A DNA stretch of 64,000 nt from contig QHSL01000065.1 of NCBI GenBank assembly GCA_003220435.1, positions 1-64,000 of the forward strand, read 5' to 3'. This stretch comes from Candidatus Rokuibacteriota bacterium. GTDB lineage: Bacteria; Methylomirabilota; Methylomirabilia; Rokubacteriales; CSP1-6. Position 1 is the stretch's first letter. Each line of letters starts with the position of its first letter. This document shows positions 3,723 to 30,950 of the stretch, piece by piece. The notes under the pieces are model-generated. The model saw only the letters and a program-made list of their open reading frames with translations. It did no database searches and was not told where the DNA came from. Made by a program: the position numbers and the translations under genes.

Positions 3723-4043
3723 CCCCGCACCCGCCCGGGCGCGCGACCGCCGACGCCCACCGCCTGGACCGGGGCTCAGCGCCCGCGTGCCCGGGGGGCT
3801 CAGCGTCGCCCGGCGAGGGCCTCCGCGCGCTCGGCATCGGCTAGCGCTCTATGCCCCCGGGTCTGTGCCTCAGCGAGCCGGCCCGCCGGCTAGGCCACAC
3901 CAGCTCCAGCACCCCGAGCGCGAGAAGTCCGCAAGCCCCAAGCGTCGCGACGAAGATCATGATCTCTTCGTGAAACCAAATCTCCACACCTCGATGGAAG
4001 CCCGCCCACCGCGCTCGAACCTAGAAAATAGGCGGCGGGCGCG

Positions 4044-4190
4044 GGCGGCGGGGGGAGGTGGGAGGGGTCGACGGGACCCGTTCCCGTCAAGCGGCGGCGG
4101 GCGCCGCGCGCCGGGAAGGAGCCCAGCCGCCGCGGACCAGCGCTCGCGTGCCGCGTGGTCCCGCGACCCCTCCCACCTCCCCCCGCCGCC
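4044..4190. repeat. Dispersed palindromic element, copy A
   Basis: This lies in the 488-base gap between convergent ftsK and the DUF4139 gene. A perfect 27-bp inverted repeat (4044-4070 against 4164-4190) extends inwards, with one bulged base, to about 35 bp per arm. The interior of about 78 bp contains GCGGCGGCGG and GGAGCCCAGCCGCC, which can pair as a second stem. A collinear relative (copy B, reverse orientation) sits at 30786-30938 with the same interior block order and spacing. It could be a MITE-like element, a structured RNA or a bidirectional terminator. The rest of the gap (3723-4043) shows no gene or recognisable signal. Confidence 0.75.
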
Positions 4191-4210
4191 CCGGACCGAC
4201 CGCCAACCGC

Positions 4211-5620
4211 CTAGAACCGAATCCGAACGCGGTAAACGAGCTTCGCGGAGCTCTCGCGCGGGACGGCGATCTGATACTTCAACGTGTGCGCTTCGATCTT
4301 CTCGTACGAGTGATTGGACGCCGTGACCTGCCAGTCGCCGGGGACCGGCTCGATCACGGTCACCGTCTGCGCCTCAGTCTTGTGGTTCCGGAGCGCGATC
4401 TCCCACTCGACCTCGTAGAGATTCGACCCGAGCTTCCTGAAGTCCTTCTGCGTGCGCTCCCCGACGAGGTCGAACGCGTTGCCCATCTTGATCTTGACGC
4501 GCTCGTCCATGGGCGTGTGATCGACCCAGTCTTCGCCGATGAACTGCTGACTGCCCGAACGGTCGGCCTTGTAGACGCGGATCTTGCCCTTCGGCAGCGG
4601 CATGCCCAGCCGGTTCTCCTTGCTGTTCTTGACCTCGAGGTAGACGCCGACCTTCTGGTTGGAGATCGGCACACCGTACGAGGTGCGGTAGTAGTCCTGC
4701 GCGCCGTAGTAGATGAGCTCCTTGGTGATCGGCACCTCGGCCGCCGCCAGGAGCGAGAGCTGCTTGGTCTGGTTGTCCTTGATCGTGGTGCGGCCGTCGA
4801 GCGTGTAGAGGTGGTACTCGAAGAACCCTTCGGACTTGAAGTCGCGGCTCGCGTCCGCGTACGACGCGGCCTTGGCCGCCATCTCGAGCACGCGCCCCTC
4901 GCGGCGCGGCTCGGGCGCCCGGTTCACGTCGCCGGCCACGAGCTTCAGCGCCGCGTTGCCGTAGGTCGCGCCGCTCTTGTTGTCGATCGTCACCCAGCCC
5001 GTCAGATCGGCGAGCCGGTCGGCGGCGTCCAGCACCATGACGTAATCGGCCTTCCACGTGACCCCGCCCGTGAGATACGACGCCTCGACGCGCTGAGGCC
5101 GCGCCGTCTGGTTGCGCAAGAGCCACACGAGCGTCGGCTTGGAGACCAGATTTTCGGGTAGCGACGGCAGGACGAGGCGGCCGTAGTGACCCATGTGGAT
5201 CTGACCATTGATCTCGAAGACCGGCCCGTCGGTCGACAAGAGCGTGGCGTCGTGGAACGTCCCGTCGGACTGGTAGAGGCGGACCTTCCGGCCGACGTAC
5301 TTCTCCAGCAGCTTCTGGCTCGTCAGCAGATCGTACTCGTAGTTCTGCTCGAGGATCCTGAGCCCCGCCGGGTCGGTGACCGACTTGAGGTGCACGGTGG
5401 TCGGATCGATCATCGCCGCCACGTCGATGAACCGCACCTCGGTCACCCCGGCCGGCAGCCGCGTTTCGCGCAGGTCCTTCACGAGCCCGAGGTTGCCGTT
5501 GTAGATCGTCACCATGACCTCGCGCTGATCGTCACGCGTGACACCGGCGGGCGCCGCCGCGACCGGGCGAGCCGCTCCGAACACGGCCAGCATCACAAGG
5601 GCGATCACCTGGTTCCTCAT
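4211..5620 (-). CDS. DUF4139 domain-containing exported protein
   Basis: This is a 469-residue protein with a clear Sec signal peptide (residues 1-22, cleaved after AVAA/APA-type residues). The body matches the DUF4139 family, a beta-rich region shared with mucoidy-inhibitor MuiA-like proteins: LGLVKDLRETRLPAGVTEVR near the start, a GVTWKADYVM stretch mid-protein and VEWEIALRNHK near the end. The family's biochemical role is unknown; the protein should be periplasmic or surface-attached. A Shine-Dalgarno GGAGGA lies a suitable distance before the ATG, in contrast to the SD-less genes elsewhere here. It is the last gene of a minus-strand block that may include the upstream sigma/anti-sigma pair, which is separated by 93 bases. 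Confidence 0.8.
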   Translation of the reverse strand: MRNQVIALVMLAVFGAARPVAAAPAGVTRDDQREVMVTIYNGNLGLVKDLRETRLPAGVTEVRFIDVAAMIDPTTVHLKSVTDPAGLRILEQNYEYDLLTSQKLLEKYVGRKVRLYQSDGTFHDATLLSTDGPVFEINGQIHMGHYGRLVLPSLPENLVSKPTLVWLLRNQTARPQRVEASYLTGGVTWKADYVMVLDAADRLADLTGWVTIDNKSGATYGNAALKLVAGDVNRAPEPRREGRVLEMAAKAASYADASRDFKSEGFFEYHLYTLDGRTTIKDNQTKQLSLLAAAEVPITKELIYYGAQDYYRTSYGVPISNQKVGVYLEVKNSKENRLGMPLPKGKIRVYKADRSGSQQFIGEDWVDHTPMDERVKIKMGNAFDLVGERTQKDFRKLGSNLYEVEWEIALRNHKTEAQTVTVIEPVPGDWQVTASNHSYEKIEAHTLKYQIAVPRESSAKLVYRVRIRF

Positions 5621-14294: not shown

Positions 14295-15757
14295 GGCGTT
14301 GGGTGCTCGGGGTGGTCGCACTGGCCGCGGCCTGCTCCACGGCGACACCGCTCGACCGCGGTCTGGCGCTCTATCGCCAGGGCCAATACCGCGAGGCGCG
14401 CGAGGCCTTCGACGAGGCGATTCGCCGGTCGCCCGCATCCGCGGCCGCCTACACGCACCGTGCGGACGCCCGCATGCGCCTGGGCGAGGTGGACGGCGCC
14501 ATCGAGGACTACACGAAGGCGCTCGGGCTGGTGCTGAACGACTCCGACGTCCTCTTCAACCGGGGTGTGGCGCTGCTCGCCCGACGTGAATACAAGAACG
14601 CGATCGACGACTTCAACGTGACGCTCGCGGTGAACCCGCGACACGCGCGCGCGCTCTACGCGCGAGGGACCGCGCGATCGCTGAGCGGCGACACCGAGCA
14701 GGCCCGCGCCGACTGGCTCCGGGCGATCGAGCTCGAGCCCGATCCGCTGCAGAGGACCGCGATGCAGGCGCTGGTCGAGATGGCGCGGCCGGCGCCTCCC
14801 GCGGCTCCCGCAGCGAGTGCGGCGACCGTCGCTGCGCCAGCCACAGTCCAGCCGGTTCCATCGGCTCCGGCTCCAGCTGCTGCGGCCGCGGTGACGTCGA
14901 CTCCCAGGGTGGCGACGCCGGCACCGGGGGTCGGTCCACCCCCTGTGAGCCCTGCGGTTGCGACGCCAGCCCCCCCGGCCGGTCCACCCCAGGTAAGCCC
15001 GGCTCCCAGCGGGGTGACGCCAGCCCCCGTGGCCGGGGCACCCCCAGTGAGCCCGGCTCCCAGCGGGGTGACGCCAGCACCCGTGGCCGGGGCACGCCCG
15101 GTGAGCCCGGCTCCCAGGGGGGTGACGTCAGAGCCCGCGGCCGGGGCACCCCTGGTGAGCCCGGCTCCCAGCGGGGTGACGTCAGAGCCCGCGGCCGGGG
15201 CACCGCCGGTGAGCCCGGCTCCTACCGTGGCGACGCTAGCATCCGCGGCCGGGGCCTCCCCGGTGAGCTCGGCTCCCAGCGCGGCGACGCCAGCACCCGC
15301 GGCCGCGGCCCCCCCGGCGACCGCAGATCTCAGCGTCGCGCAGCCAGCGACTGACCCGGCGGCGCCGGCTCTGCCACCGGCCGCTGCCGTAACGCAGCCC
15401 GCTGGGGAGGCAGGTGCAGCCCCGGCGTCGCCGCCTGCGGCAGCCTCCCCCGCGACCGAGGCGCCCGCGACACCCATGCGGCAGCCCGCTACGAGGACAC
15501 CCGCTGCCACAGCCGCGGTCGTCCCGCCGCCGGCTACCACGCCCGCTCCAGCTCCTGCGACGCCTCCAGCCCCTGCGCCGGCGGCTCCGCTACCCCTCGA
15601 TAGCCGTGGGTTGACGGCTCGCGCGATCGACAAGGAGCTCAGAGGCGACCACTGGGGCGCGATCGCCGACCTTCGTGAGGCTCTGGTGAGTGAAAACGAC
15701 TCCGAGCGCCGTCAGGGGATCCAGAACTTGCTGCAGCTGCTGGACCCGCCGCGATAG
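14291..15757 (+). CDS. TPR lipoprotein with Pro/Ala-rich tandem repeats
   Basis: The 488-residue predicted lipoprotein starts at GTG (overlapping the cinA stop) with RRWVLGVVALAAAC, a lipobox-like site with Cys near residue 15. Residues about 20-155 form three tetratricopeptide-like repeats (for example LALYRQGQYREAREAFDEAI). From about 170 to 440 the protein is low-complexity Pro/Ala/Val, including six 18-residue tandem units of the type SPAPSGVTPAPVAGAPPV. A C-terminal helical segment (about 445-488) ends the protein. It is probably an envelope scaffold in which the Pro-rich part spans the periplasm. No enzymatic motif is present. Confidence 0.8.
   Translation: MRRWVLGVVALAAACSTATPLDRGLALYRQGQYREAREAFDEAIRRSPASAAAYTHRADARMRLGEVDGAIEDYTKALGLVLNDSDVLFNRGVALLARREYKNAIDDFNVTLAVNPRHARALYARGTARSLSGDTEQARADWLRAIELEPDPLQRTAMQALVEMARPAPPAAPAASAATVAAPATVQPVPSAPAPAAAAAVTSTPRVATPAPGVGPPPVSPAVATPAPPAGPPQVSPAPSGVTPAPVAGAPPVSPAPSGVTPAPVAGARPVSPAPRGVTSEPAAGAPLVSPAPSGVTSEPAAGAPPVSPAPTVATLASAAGASPVSSAPSAATPAPAAAAPPATADLSVAQPATDPAAPALPPAAAVTQPAGEAGAAPASPPAAASPATEAPATPMRQPATRTPAATAAVVPPPATTPAPAPATPPAPAPAAPLPLDSRGLTARAIDKELRGDHWGAIADLREALVSENDSERRQGIQNLLQLLDPPR
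14993..15316 (+). repeat. Six 54-bp in-frame tandem repeats
   Basis: Six consecutive 54-bp units begin at 14993, 15047, 15101, 15155, 15209 and 15263, each opening GTRAGCYCGGCTCC. Units 1-4 are nearly identical and 5-6 are more diverged; a degenerate repeat precedes them (about 14900-14992). The period is 18 codons, so copy-number change preserves the frame. There is no spacer diversity, so this is not a CRISPR array. Confidence 0.9.
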
Positions 15758-25933: not shown

Positions 25934-25946
25934 CGCACTGTGAGGC

Positions 25947-26095
25947 GGGACGGTGGGGCGCCAGCGGGGGCGCACCCCCTGCGCCCCCTGACTGCTGCTG
26001 TCCGTTGCGTCTGAATCCGTCACTCTCTGCCGTGGCTGAGCTGACTACACGGGCTGCGCCGGGGGGTGCGCCCCCGCCCGGCGCCCCACCGTCCC
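25947..26095. repeat. Long palindromic intergenic element
   Basis: Two arms of 33-34 bp (25947-25979 and 26062-26095) are complementary apart from one or two bases, beginning GGGACGGTGGGGCGCC and ending GGCGCCCCACCGTCCC. The 82-bp interior is less GC-rich and shows no clear secondary pairing. It sits between convergent genes (the hydrolase, and rlmI at 26144). The sequence differs from the 4 kb and 30.8 kb elements, though size and placement are alike. It may be a bidirectional terminator, a MITE-like element or a processed RNA. Confidence 0.7.
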
Positions 26096-26143
26096 GGTTA
26101 ACCGCCGCATAGCACTTCGCTGCTGCCCTGCTGATGAATCTGT

Positions 26144-29405: not shown

Positions 29406-29801
29406 GTGAACGCCTTGGGACGACACCTGCTGCTCGAGATGTTCGACTGCGACCCTGACGCCATCAACAACCTAGAGGCCGTCAAGGGGGCCCTGGTAGA
29501 GGCGGCAAAACGGGCCCAGGCCACCATCGTCGACGTCGTCTTCCATGAGTTCAACCCGTTCGGTATCAGCGGCGTGGTTGTCATCGCCGAATCCCACCTG
29601 TCGATCCACACGTGGCCGGAATACCGGTACGCGGCCGTCGACATCTTCTCCTGCGGCGACGTCCTTCAGCCTGAGGTCGCCGCCAACTACCTGGTCGAGC
29701 AGTTCGCCGCCGAGCGCACCTCGATCGTCGAGATGCAGCGGGGCATGTTCCTCAACGCGGCGGTGCCGATCGTCAACAAGAGCCCGGTCAGCGTGAATTG
29801 A
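29406..29801 (+). CDS. speD: S-adenosylmethionine decarboxylase proenzyme
   Basis: SpeD supplies decarboxylated SAM for spermidine synthesis. The 131-residue protein is the short prokaryotic class: NALGRHLLLEMFDCDPDAIN at the start, the self-cleavage site in AESHLSIHTWPE (the Ser becomes the pyruvoyl group) and YAAVDIFSCGD. A start at GTG 29406 aligns with the family (MNALGRH); an in-frame ATG at 29346 would add 20 unconserved basic residues. An AGGGAG-type Shine-Dalgarno sequence lies about ten bases upstream. The stop overlaps the speE TTG by four bases (TTGA). Confidence 0.94.
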   Translation: MNALGRHLLLEMFDCDPDAINNLEAVKGALVEAAKRAQATIVDVVFHEFNPFGISGVVVIAESHLSIHTWPEYRYAAVDIFSCGDVLQPEVAANYLVEQFAAERTSIVEMQRGMFLNAAVPIVNKSPVSVN

Positions 29802-30718
29802 TCCATTCGCAGTCCTACAAGTGGTTCCTCGAAACCACGACGACCTTCGAAGGGCACATGCACGCCATCGCCCGGACGGTCGTCGAGACCCAGACCAAGT
29901 TCCAGCACGTCGAGATCCTCGAGACGGCGGCGTACGGCAAGACCCTCGTCCTCGACGGGCGCATCCAGTCCAGCCAGGGTGACGAGTTCATCTATCACGA
30001 GGCCCTCGTCCATCCCGGGATGCTGGCAGTCGAGGCCCCGCCCCGCACTGCCCTGGTGATCGGCGGCGGCGAGGGCGCGACGCTCCGAGAGATCCTGAGG
30101 TACCCGACGGTGACCCGGGCCGTCATGGTCGATATCGACCGAGAAGTAGTCGACCTCTGCAAGATCCACCTCCCCGAGATGCATCGGGGGGCCTTCGACG
30201 ACCGGCGGACCGAGCTCAGGCACGAGGACGCCCGGGCGTACCTCGAGGGGAGCCGGGACCGCTTCGATTTCATTTCTGTCGACCTGGTCGAGCCGCTCGA
30301 GGAAGGCCCGGCCTGTATGCTCTTCACCAAGGAGTTCTACACGCTGGTCCGGGACCGCCTCACGCCGGGCGGTACCATGACGATGCAGGCCGGAATGACG
30401 AAGGTCGGCGAGCTCGCCTTCTTCTCGTCGATTCACCGGACTCTCCGGGAGGTTTTCCCGGTGGTCGCCGGCTACCAGAGCTACATCTCTTGCTTTGGCA
30501 CACCGTGGGGATTCATCGTCGCTTCCAAGAAGGTCGACCCGACCCGGCAGGACGTCCAGACGGTGGACCGACTCATCGCCGAGCGCGTCAAGGATCCGCT
30601 CGAGTACTGGGATGGCGTGACGCACCAGCACGCGTTCGGCCTCCCGAAGTTCATCCGCAAGGCTGTTGCGAAGCAAACTCGCGTCGTCACCGACGCGAAC
30701 CCGCTCATCGTCTCCTGA
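29798..30718 (+). CDS. speE: Spermidine synthase
   Basis: SpeE transfers an aminopropyl group from decarboxylated SAM to putrescine. The 306-residue protein has the family pattern: GKTLVLDGRIQSSQGDEFIY, HEALVHPGML, the nucleotide motif VIGGGEGATLREILRY, and DLVEPLEEGPACMLFTKEFY. The start TTG overlaps the speD stop, so translation is coupled. Together with the divergent agmatinase this completes a putrescine-to-spermidine route. Confidence 0.94.
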   Translation: MIHSQSYKWFLETTTTFEGHMHAIARTVVETQTKFQHVEILETAAYGKTLVLDGRIQSSQGDEFIYHEALVHPGMLAVEAPPRTALVIGGGEGATLREILRYPTVTRAVMVDIDREVVDLCKIHLPEMHRGAFDDRRTELRHEDARAYLEGSRDRFDFISVDLVEPLEEGPACMLFTKEFYTLVRDRLTPGGTMTMQAGMTKVGELAFFSSIHRTLREVFPVVAGYQSYISCFGTPWGFIVASKKVDPTRQDVQTVDRLIAERVKDPLEYWDGVTHQHAFGLPKFIRKAVAKQTRVVTDANPLIVS

Positions 30719-30785
30719 CGCTCACCCTCGGCCGCACATTGGCAGTGATCGCCGTCGCTGCGCTCCATCTCCTTCGCCTCTAGCA

Positions 30786-30938
30786 GGGTCGAAGACAGGT
30801 GGGCGGGAGGGATCGCGGGACCACGCGGCACGCGAGCGCGGCCCCTCGGCGGCTGGGCTCCATCTGGATGCTCGTCGTCCGCCGCCGCTCTTCGGGAACG
30901 GGTCCCGCCGACCCCTCCCGCCCACCTATCCTCGACCC
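30786..30938. repeat. Dispersed palindromic element, copy B
   Basis: This is the second copy of the element at 4044-4190, in reverse orientation. The arms 30786-30822 and 30901-30938 are complementary at about 33 of 38 positions. The reverse complement aligns with copy A without gaps through the interior (blocks CCCGTTCCCG, GCGGCGGCGG, GGAGCCCAGCCGCC, GCGCTCGCGTGCCGCGTGGT), while 4-, 17- and 8-base segments between them differ in sequence but not in length. The arms differ between copies yet remain self-complementary in each. It fills the gap between speE and maf. Confidence 0.75.
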
Positions 30939-30950
30939 TGCGGATACTGT

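Follow-up and report, generated by a model that had tools for sequence, protein, structure and literature searches.

The intergenic DNA of this Rokubacteria genome carries about 30 copies of a palindromic element in which a conserved core of 86 nt is flanked by long arms that differ in sequence between copies yet remain self-complementary. We favor the reading that this is a functional structured element, probably an RNA, that is rarely dispersed and owes its lasting pairing to selection, probably with some help from template switching, and we put the probability of this reading at about 0.5. The repeat family is undescribed, as no matching Rfam family and no matching paper were found: in Rfam 15 the window's element had no match at gathering level and copy A had none at E values up to 5, and a search of the open literature on Rokubacteria together with palindromes, structured RNA or intergenic repeats returned nothing relevant. 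More tentatively, and at somewhat less than even odds, the family may represent a bacterial structured RNA gene or RNA-protein element of a new class, with tens of paralogues per genome, an 86-nt core and a hypervariable covarying stem, that replication can invert in place without loss of the element.

Two copies lie in the window (the whole stretch of 64,000 nt that was analyzed), in opposite orientations:

4043-4191, plus strand: copy A, whole palindromic element (palindrome scan and BLAST; covariance-model match at 4053-4184)
4043-4070, plus strand: 5' arm of copy A, 28 bp, pairing perfectly with the 3' arm and unlike the arms of other copies in sequence
4075-4160, plus strand: core of copy A, 86 nt, GACCCGTTCCC..GGAGCCCAGCCGC..CGCGTGCCGCGTGGTC
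4164-4191, plus strand: 3' arm of copy A (palindrome scan)
30783-30941, minus strand: copy B, whole palindromic element (palindrome scan; covariance-model match at 30795-30926, minus strand)
30909-30941, minus strand: 5' arm of copy B in element orientation (palindrome scan)
30819-30904, minus strand: core of copy B, 86 nt
30783-30815, minus strand: 3' arm of copy B in element orientation (palindrome scan)

When all centers in the window were scanned, copies A and B were its two strongest palindromes, and one further palindrome passed the cut-off. The best arms of copy A are 28 bp long with 0 mismatches and those of copy B 33 bp with 3 mismatches, and the loop between them measures 93 nt in both. 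Positions 4057-4177 of copy A align with the reverse complement of 30802-30922 in copy B without gaps over 121 nt at 84% identity, which bears out the claim of a preliminary description that the two are collinear, with a shared interior and arms that differ but stay self-complementary. The genes ftsK and, in convergent orientation, a DUF4139 gene flank copy A (neighbors assigned by Pfam), whose 3' side faces the DUF4139 stop at 4211. Copy B follows a spermidine synthase gene (29798-30718, plus strand) and precedes the start of maf (30951, plus strand). In most relatives a small gene occupies the copy B locus between spermidine synthase and maf (30718-30790), most of which seems to be gone, beside the element, from this genome and from its nearest relative, G003.

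Two other repeats were seen in the window. The third long palindrome, at 25946-26096 between convergent genes, has an unrelated core (GACTGCT....GCTGACTACACGG). This pattern, which was derived from the same two copies that it describes, occurs once in the related genome G008, at another locus (behind the spermidine synthase gene) and with different self-complementary arms; the two may perhaps form another, rare family with this architecture. Separately, seven overlapping repeat copies with a spacing of exactly 54 bp lie inside long open frames at 14908-15420.

A BLAST search with copy A hit about 30 places in the 5.4-Mb draft genome, the lowest E value for another copy being 1e-41. A covariance model was then made from 29 of these places and recovered 30 full-length copies. 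Two of the 30, terminal on contigs C127 and C92 (L075 and L077), are nearly the same copy and share arms and flanks; judging from this likeness they are probably one locus split by the assembly, and the number of loci is therefore about 29. The genome-wide covariance-model search proposed in the preliminary description thus yielded many further copies, which excludes chance as the origin of the A/B likeness, and the suspicion voiced there that the copies belong to no known family agrees with the Rfam and literature results. Eight other genomes of the genus carry 10-51 copies each. In a survey of the phylum, 24 of 95 genomes carried the element, all within one family and patchily by genus. A scan of 84,980 species genomes with the core pattern found, among the matches listed, only Rokubacteria contigs but for one; the exception, a contig labeled Chloroflexi (VBKA01000011.1, CF_170, carrying L163), is probably a misbinned Rokubacteria contig. 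Viral contigs contained no match to the exact core pattern, and viral spread was rejected on this ground.

Read in the orientation of copy A, the family consists of a 5' arm, GACC, a core of 85-87 nt ending in GGTC, and a 3' arm. About half of the core positions are nearly invariant (GACCCGTTCCC, GGAGCCCAGCCG, GCG..CGCGTGCCGCGTGGTC). RNAalifold gives the core only a weak internal fold that is not well supported, and conservation of the core is sequence-like rather than helix-like. Arms have a median length of about 42 nt (middle half 38-48). Among 119 distinct copies each of the outer modeled arm positions is 93-97% paired, with all four Watson-Crick pair types in use, so that GC skew, which the preliminary description had named as a possible trivial cause, does not explain the pairing. 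Divergence between paralogues is 45% in the arms and 2% in the conserved core columns, and the outer arms approach random identity; G+C content over the modeled element is 68-87%. The arm ends themselves differ between copies, and the 80 nt outside them have an information content near 0, with no conserved flank and no end or target motif. We found no promoter motif at the copies. On the 3' side, 3 of 107 copies have at least four T residues in the first 10 nt after the stem, and on the other side 10 of 107 do; an intrinsic terminator was rejected for lack of a U-tract.

Several observations indicate that individual copies are under constraint. Many loci are orthologous between species, and we compared those of this genome (G000) with those of G003. 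Variable core positions had changed in 85 of 262 cases (32%) and arm positions in 98 of 502, whereas conserved core positions had changed in 14 of 495 (3%), a deficit of about eleven-fold. The conserved columns were chosen on copies of this genome, which by itself favors a low rate and would depress it by about two-fold at most; when the neutral rate is halved to allow for this, a deficit of about five-fold remains. Variable positions differ by 32% between orthologues and by 57% between paralogues, so the copies are not being homogenized with one another. Within the arms, 21 pairs had changed on both sides with Watson-Crick pairing kept, against about 1 expected by arithmetic from the per-site rate and the counts; the same arm pairs showed 9 single mismatches and 8 wobble-type changes. 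It is strongly supported that the pairing of the stem is kept, whether by selection or by another form of maintenance, and base-pair covariation beyond chance, the test applied for a structured non-coding RNA, was observed. The preliminary description had offered selection on structure or recent transposition of a MITE-like unit as explanations: the double changes and the four pair types support the first, or some other maintenance of pairing, whereas the second fares poorly, the arms being the most variable part and most of the copies tested lying at orthologous sites in related species.

The stem also distinguishes the two DNA strands. Between 6 and 35 bp from the core, wobbles read on the copy A strand comprise 92 G-U and 32 A-C pairs (p = 7e-8). 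The same bias appears when only copies retrieved solely with the core pattern are counted (49:18) and when the two tandem gene contexts are taken separately (38:16, 18:2). The core-closing helix has 7 G-U and 11 U-G wobbles, against 7 A-C wobbles at its outermost pair. Parity of G-U and A-C would be expected if the two DNA strands were equally important; the excess therefore indicates that it is the copy A strand that folds. This strand is probably the folding strand whatever the direction of the neighboring gene, and it probably acts single-stranded. RNA would be the simplest form of such a folded strand, and is probably the right one.

If the neighboring gene at the 3' side runs toward the element, no more than 64 nt separate its stop codon from the arm in 63 of 63 cases, and often fewer than 15 nt; on the 5' side the distance to the stop codon is looser. 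Divergent gene contexts account for 5 of 93. Element pairs noted as neighbors have their 5' sides facing in all eight cases, three of them in this genome (C42, C69 and C92) and the others in relatives (G003 C10, C55 and C93; G002 C535; L097). Stems that keep their pairing while their letters vary suggest that a folded strand, probably RNA, does a job at gene ends. In the mechanism that we propose, the plus strand of copy A would fold single-stranded into a stem of roughly 30-48 bp that presents the 86-nt constant core at its tip, presumably as RNA made by transcription through the intergenic region. The core would be the part recognized, by a putative protein or ligand, and the stem a scaffold in which pairing would matter and the letters would not. 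Because the 3' side of the element abuts stop codons, the likeliest site of action would be transcript 3' ends, through antisense or convergent transcription or through the stability of RNA ends; alternatively, the element may give rise to a small RNA made at gene ends. The whole palindrome would spread only rarely, and its pairing would be kept by selection, probably together with template switching, which would also explain why cores can be inverted in place. Points against this reading are the lack of a promoter motif, of a conserved flank and of a U-tract, the poorly supported internal fold of the core, the tolerance of inversion, and the loss or truncation of some copies.

Some dispersal does happen: the insertion of copy A is lineage-specific in appearance, and some arms are alike beyond chance. 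In 12 relatives the adjacent gene end is present without copy A, and in G007, G001 and G002 the site of copy A reads straight through as an empty site; copy A was therefore most likely gained on this lineage. Copy B, in comparison with the relatives tested, is common to G003 only, in the same orientation. Copies can also be lost or truncated, an example being the L055 locus of G008. Arms are shared beyond any reversed-arm control in 10 of 434 paralogue pairs, among them copy A with L080, from which the unit copied seems to be the whole palindrome. The gain of copy A with its readable empty sites, the copied palindromes and the patchy presence among genera would suit a non-autonomous mobile element whose moving form is a single-stranded DNA hairpin made by one strand, with the core as recognition site of an enzyme and the copies mainly selfish; the G-U excess and the pairing would likewise fit single-stranded DNA of one strand. 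We regard this alternative as unlikely, because selfish leftovers would not be expected to show purifying selection at single orthologous copies, because conserved ends and a target motif are missing, and because a Y1 transposase (RAYT/IS200, PF01797) was found in none of nine genomes of the genus. PF01797 was present in 11 of 57 genomes of the family, nearly all of which do not carry the element.

Two proposals about how a copy arises were set aside. Insertion of a core into pre-existing palindromic terminators was rejected at copy A, where the 12 relatives without the element have no matching palindrome. That arms copy flanking DNA had been considered for L076 of this genome against L269 of G003 (the junctions of empty sites used were those of copy A and L076 only, the automatic alignment of several others being poor); it was dropped, as G007 has the element beside a matching flank, and G003 therefore more likely carries a deletion scar at L269.

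A distinctly improbable reading is that the element is a double-stranded or cruciform DNA site for a chromosome-organizing or other DNA-binding protein, similar to a BIME. It would accommodate the intergenic location, the depletion in divergent regions and the sequence-like conservation of the core, as well as the tolerance of inversion. The core has been inverted in place with the arms kept at several loci (L060/L086 against L087 and G003 L277; L057 against L143; L120 against L160; L082 against G003 L281), including 2 of the 14 loci compared between G000 and G003, which argues that no strict orientation to neighboring genes is needed. However, an excess of G-U on one strand is not expected if both strands extrude equally, and a protein site in duplex DNA would not need a stem of 30-48 bp.

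The same inversions bear on the notion, which we consider very unlikely, that these are neutral palindromes made perfect only by template switching in replication, with a passively inherited core. Compensatory changes and loop inversions are known products of template switching (PMC8794818), and at L175 (1440-1600) the 5' half of the core has been replaced by the inverted 3' half, so that the core is a near-perfect palindrome, which fits what template switching would produce. Against neutrality stand the conservation of core positions copy by copy, the strand asymmetry of the wobbles and the anchoring to stop codons. For the functional element that we prefer, template switching would fit the in-place inversions of the core and probably helps to keep the pairing. 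Least probable of all is a classical MITE that a DDE transposase would move via its terminal inverted repeats: size, intergenic location and dispersed copies are as expected, but the terminal repeats are the least conserved part, the copies have no conserved ends in common, many are shared at orthologous sites, and no target-site duplication is evident at copy A against the empty sites of G007, G001 and G002, where proteins are 83-87% identical and the ends of the element are uncertain.

Compared by description with known systems, the family resembles several. MITEs such as Correia/NEMIS and RUP are likewise non-coding dispersed units of less than 200 bp; however, they have conserved terminal repeats and mostly A+T-rich sequence, and they generate target duplications (PMC2229807), whereas here the terminal repeats vary most and the DNA is G+C-rich. 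The anatomy is the opposite of that of the usual MITE, with the tip constant and the stem free. The enterobacterial repeats ERIC/IRU/RU-1 and YPAL/RU-2 are intergenic units of a similar kind, 127-168 bp long, whose transcripts fold into long hairpins, and ERIC has an orientation-dependent effect on mRNA stability (PMC2229807); in the present family, which belongs to another phylum, the outer stem is unlike in each copy, the tip alone is constant and cores are inverted in place. REPs, of 20-40 bp with a conserved end tag, are moved by RAYT tyrosine transposases (PMC3733652). REPs, BIMEs and REPINs share with our element the dispersed intergenic palindromes, the paired inverted copies and a proposed single-strand recognition, but a REP/REPIN system with RAYT was rejected, since the copies have no end tag (such as GTAG) and Y1 transposases are absent from the genus. 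Like curated structured RNA families (Rfam 15), the element has a covarying stem and a conserved apical core; it differs in matching none of them at the thresholds given above, and would be an undescribed repeat or RNA family marking gene ends in one uncultured lineage. Finally, RNA hairpins maintained by template switching show the same compensatory changes and inversion of the loop in place, but their loop inversions span 4-8 nt (PMC8794818), far less than the roughly 90 nt over which cores would be turned round here. The many orthologous pairs of this family offer a natural test of whether the pairing of long stems is kept by selection or by template switching.
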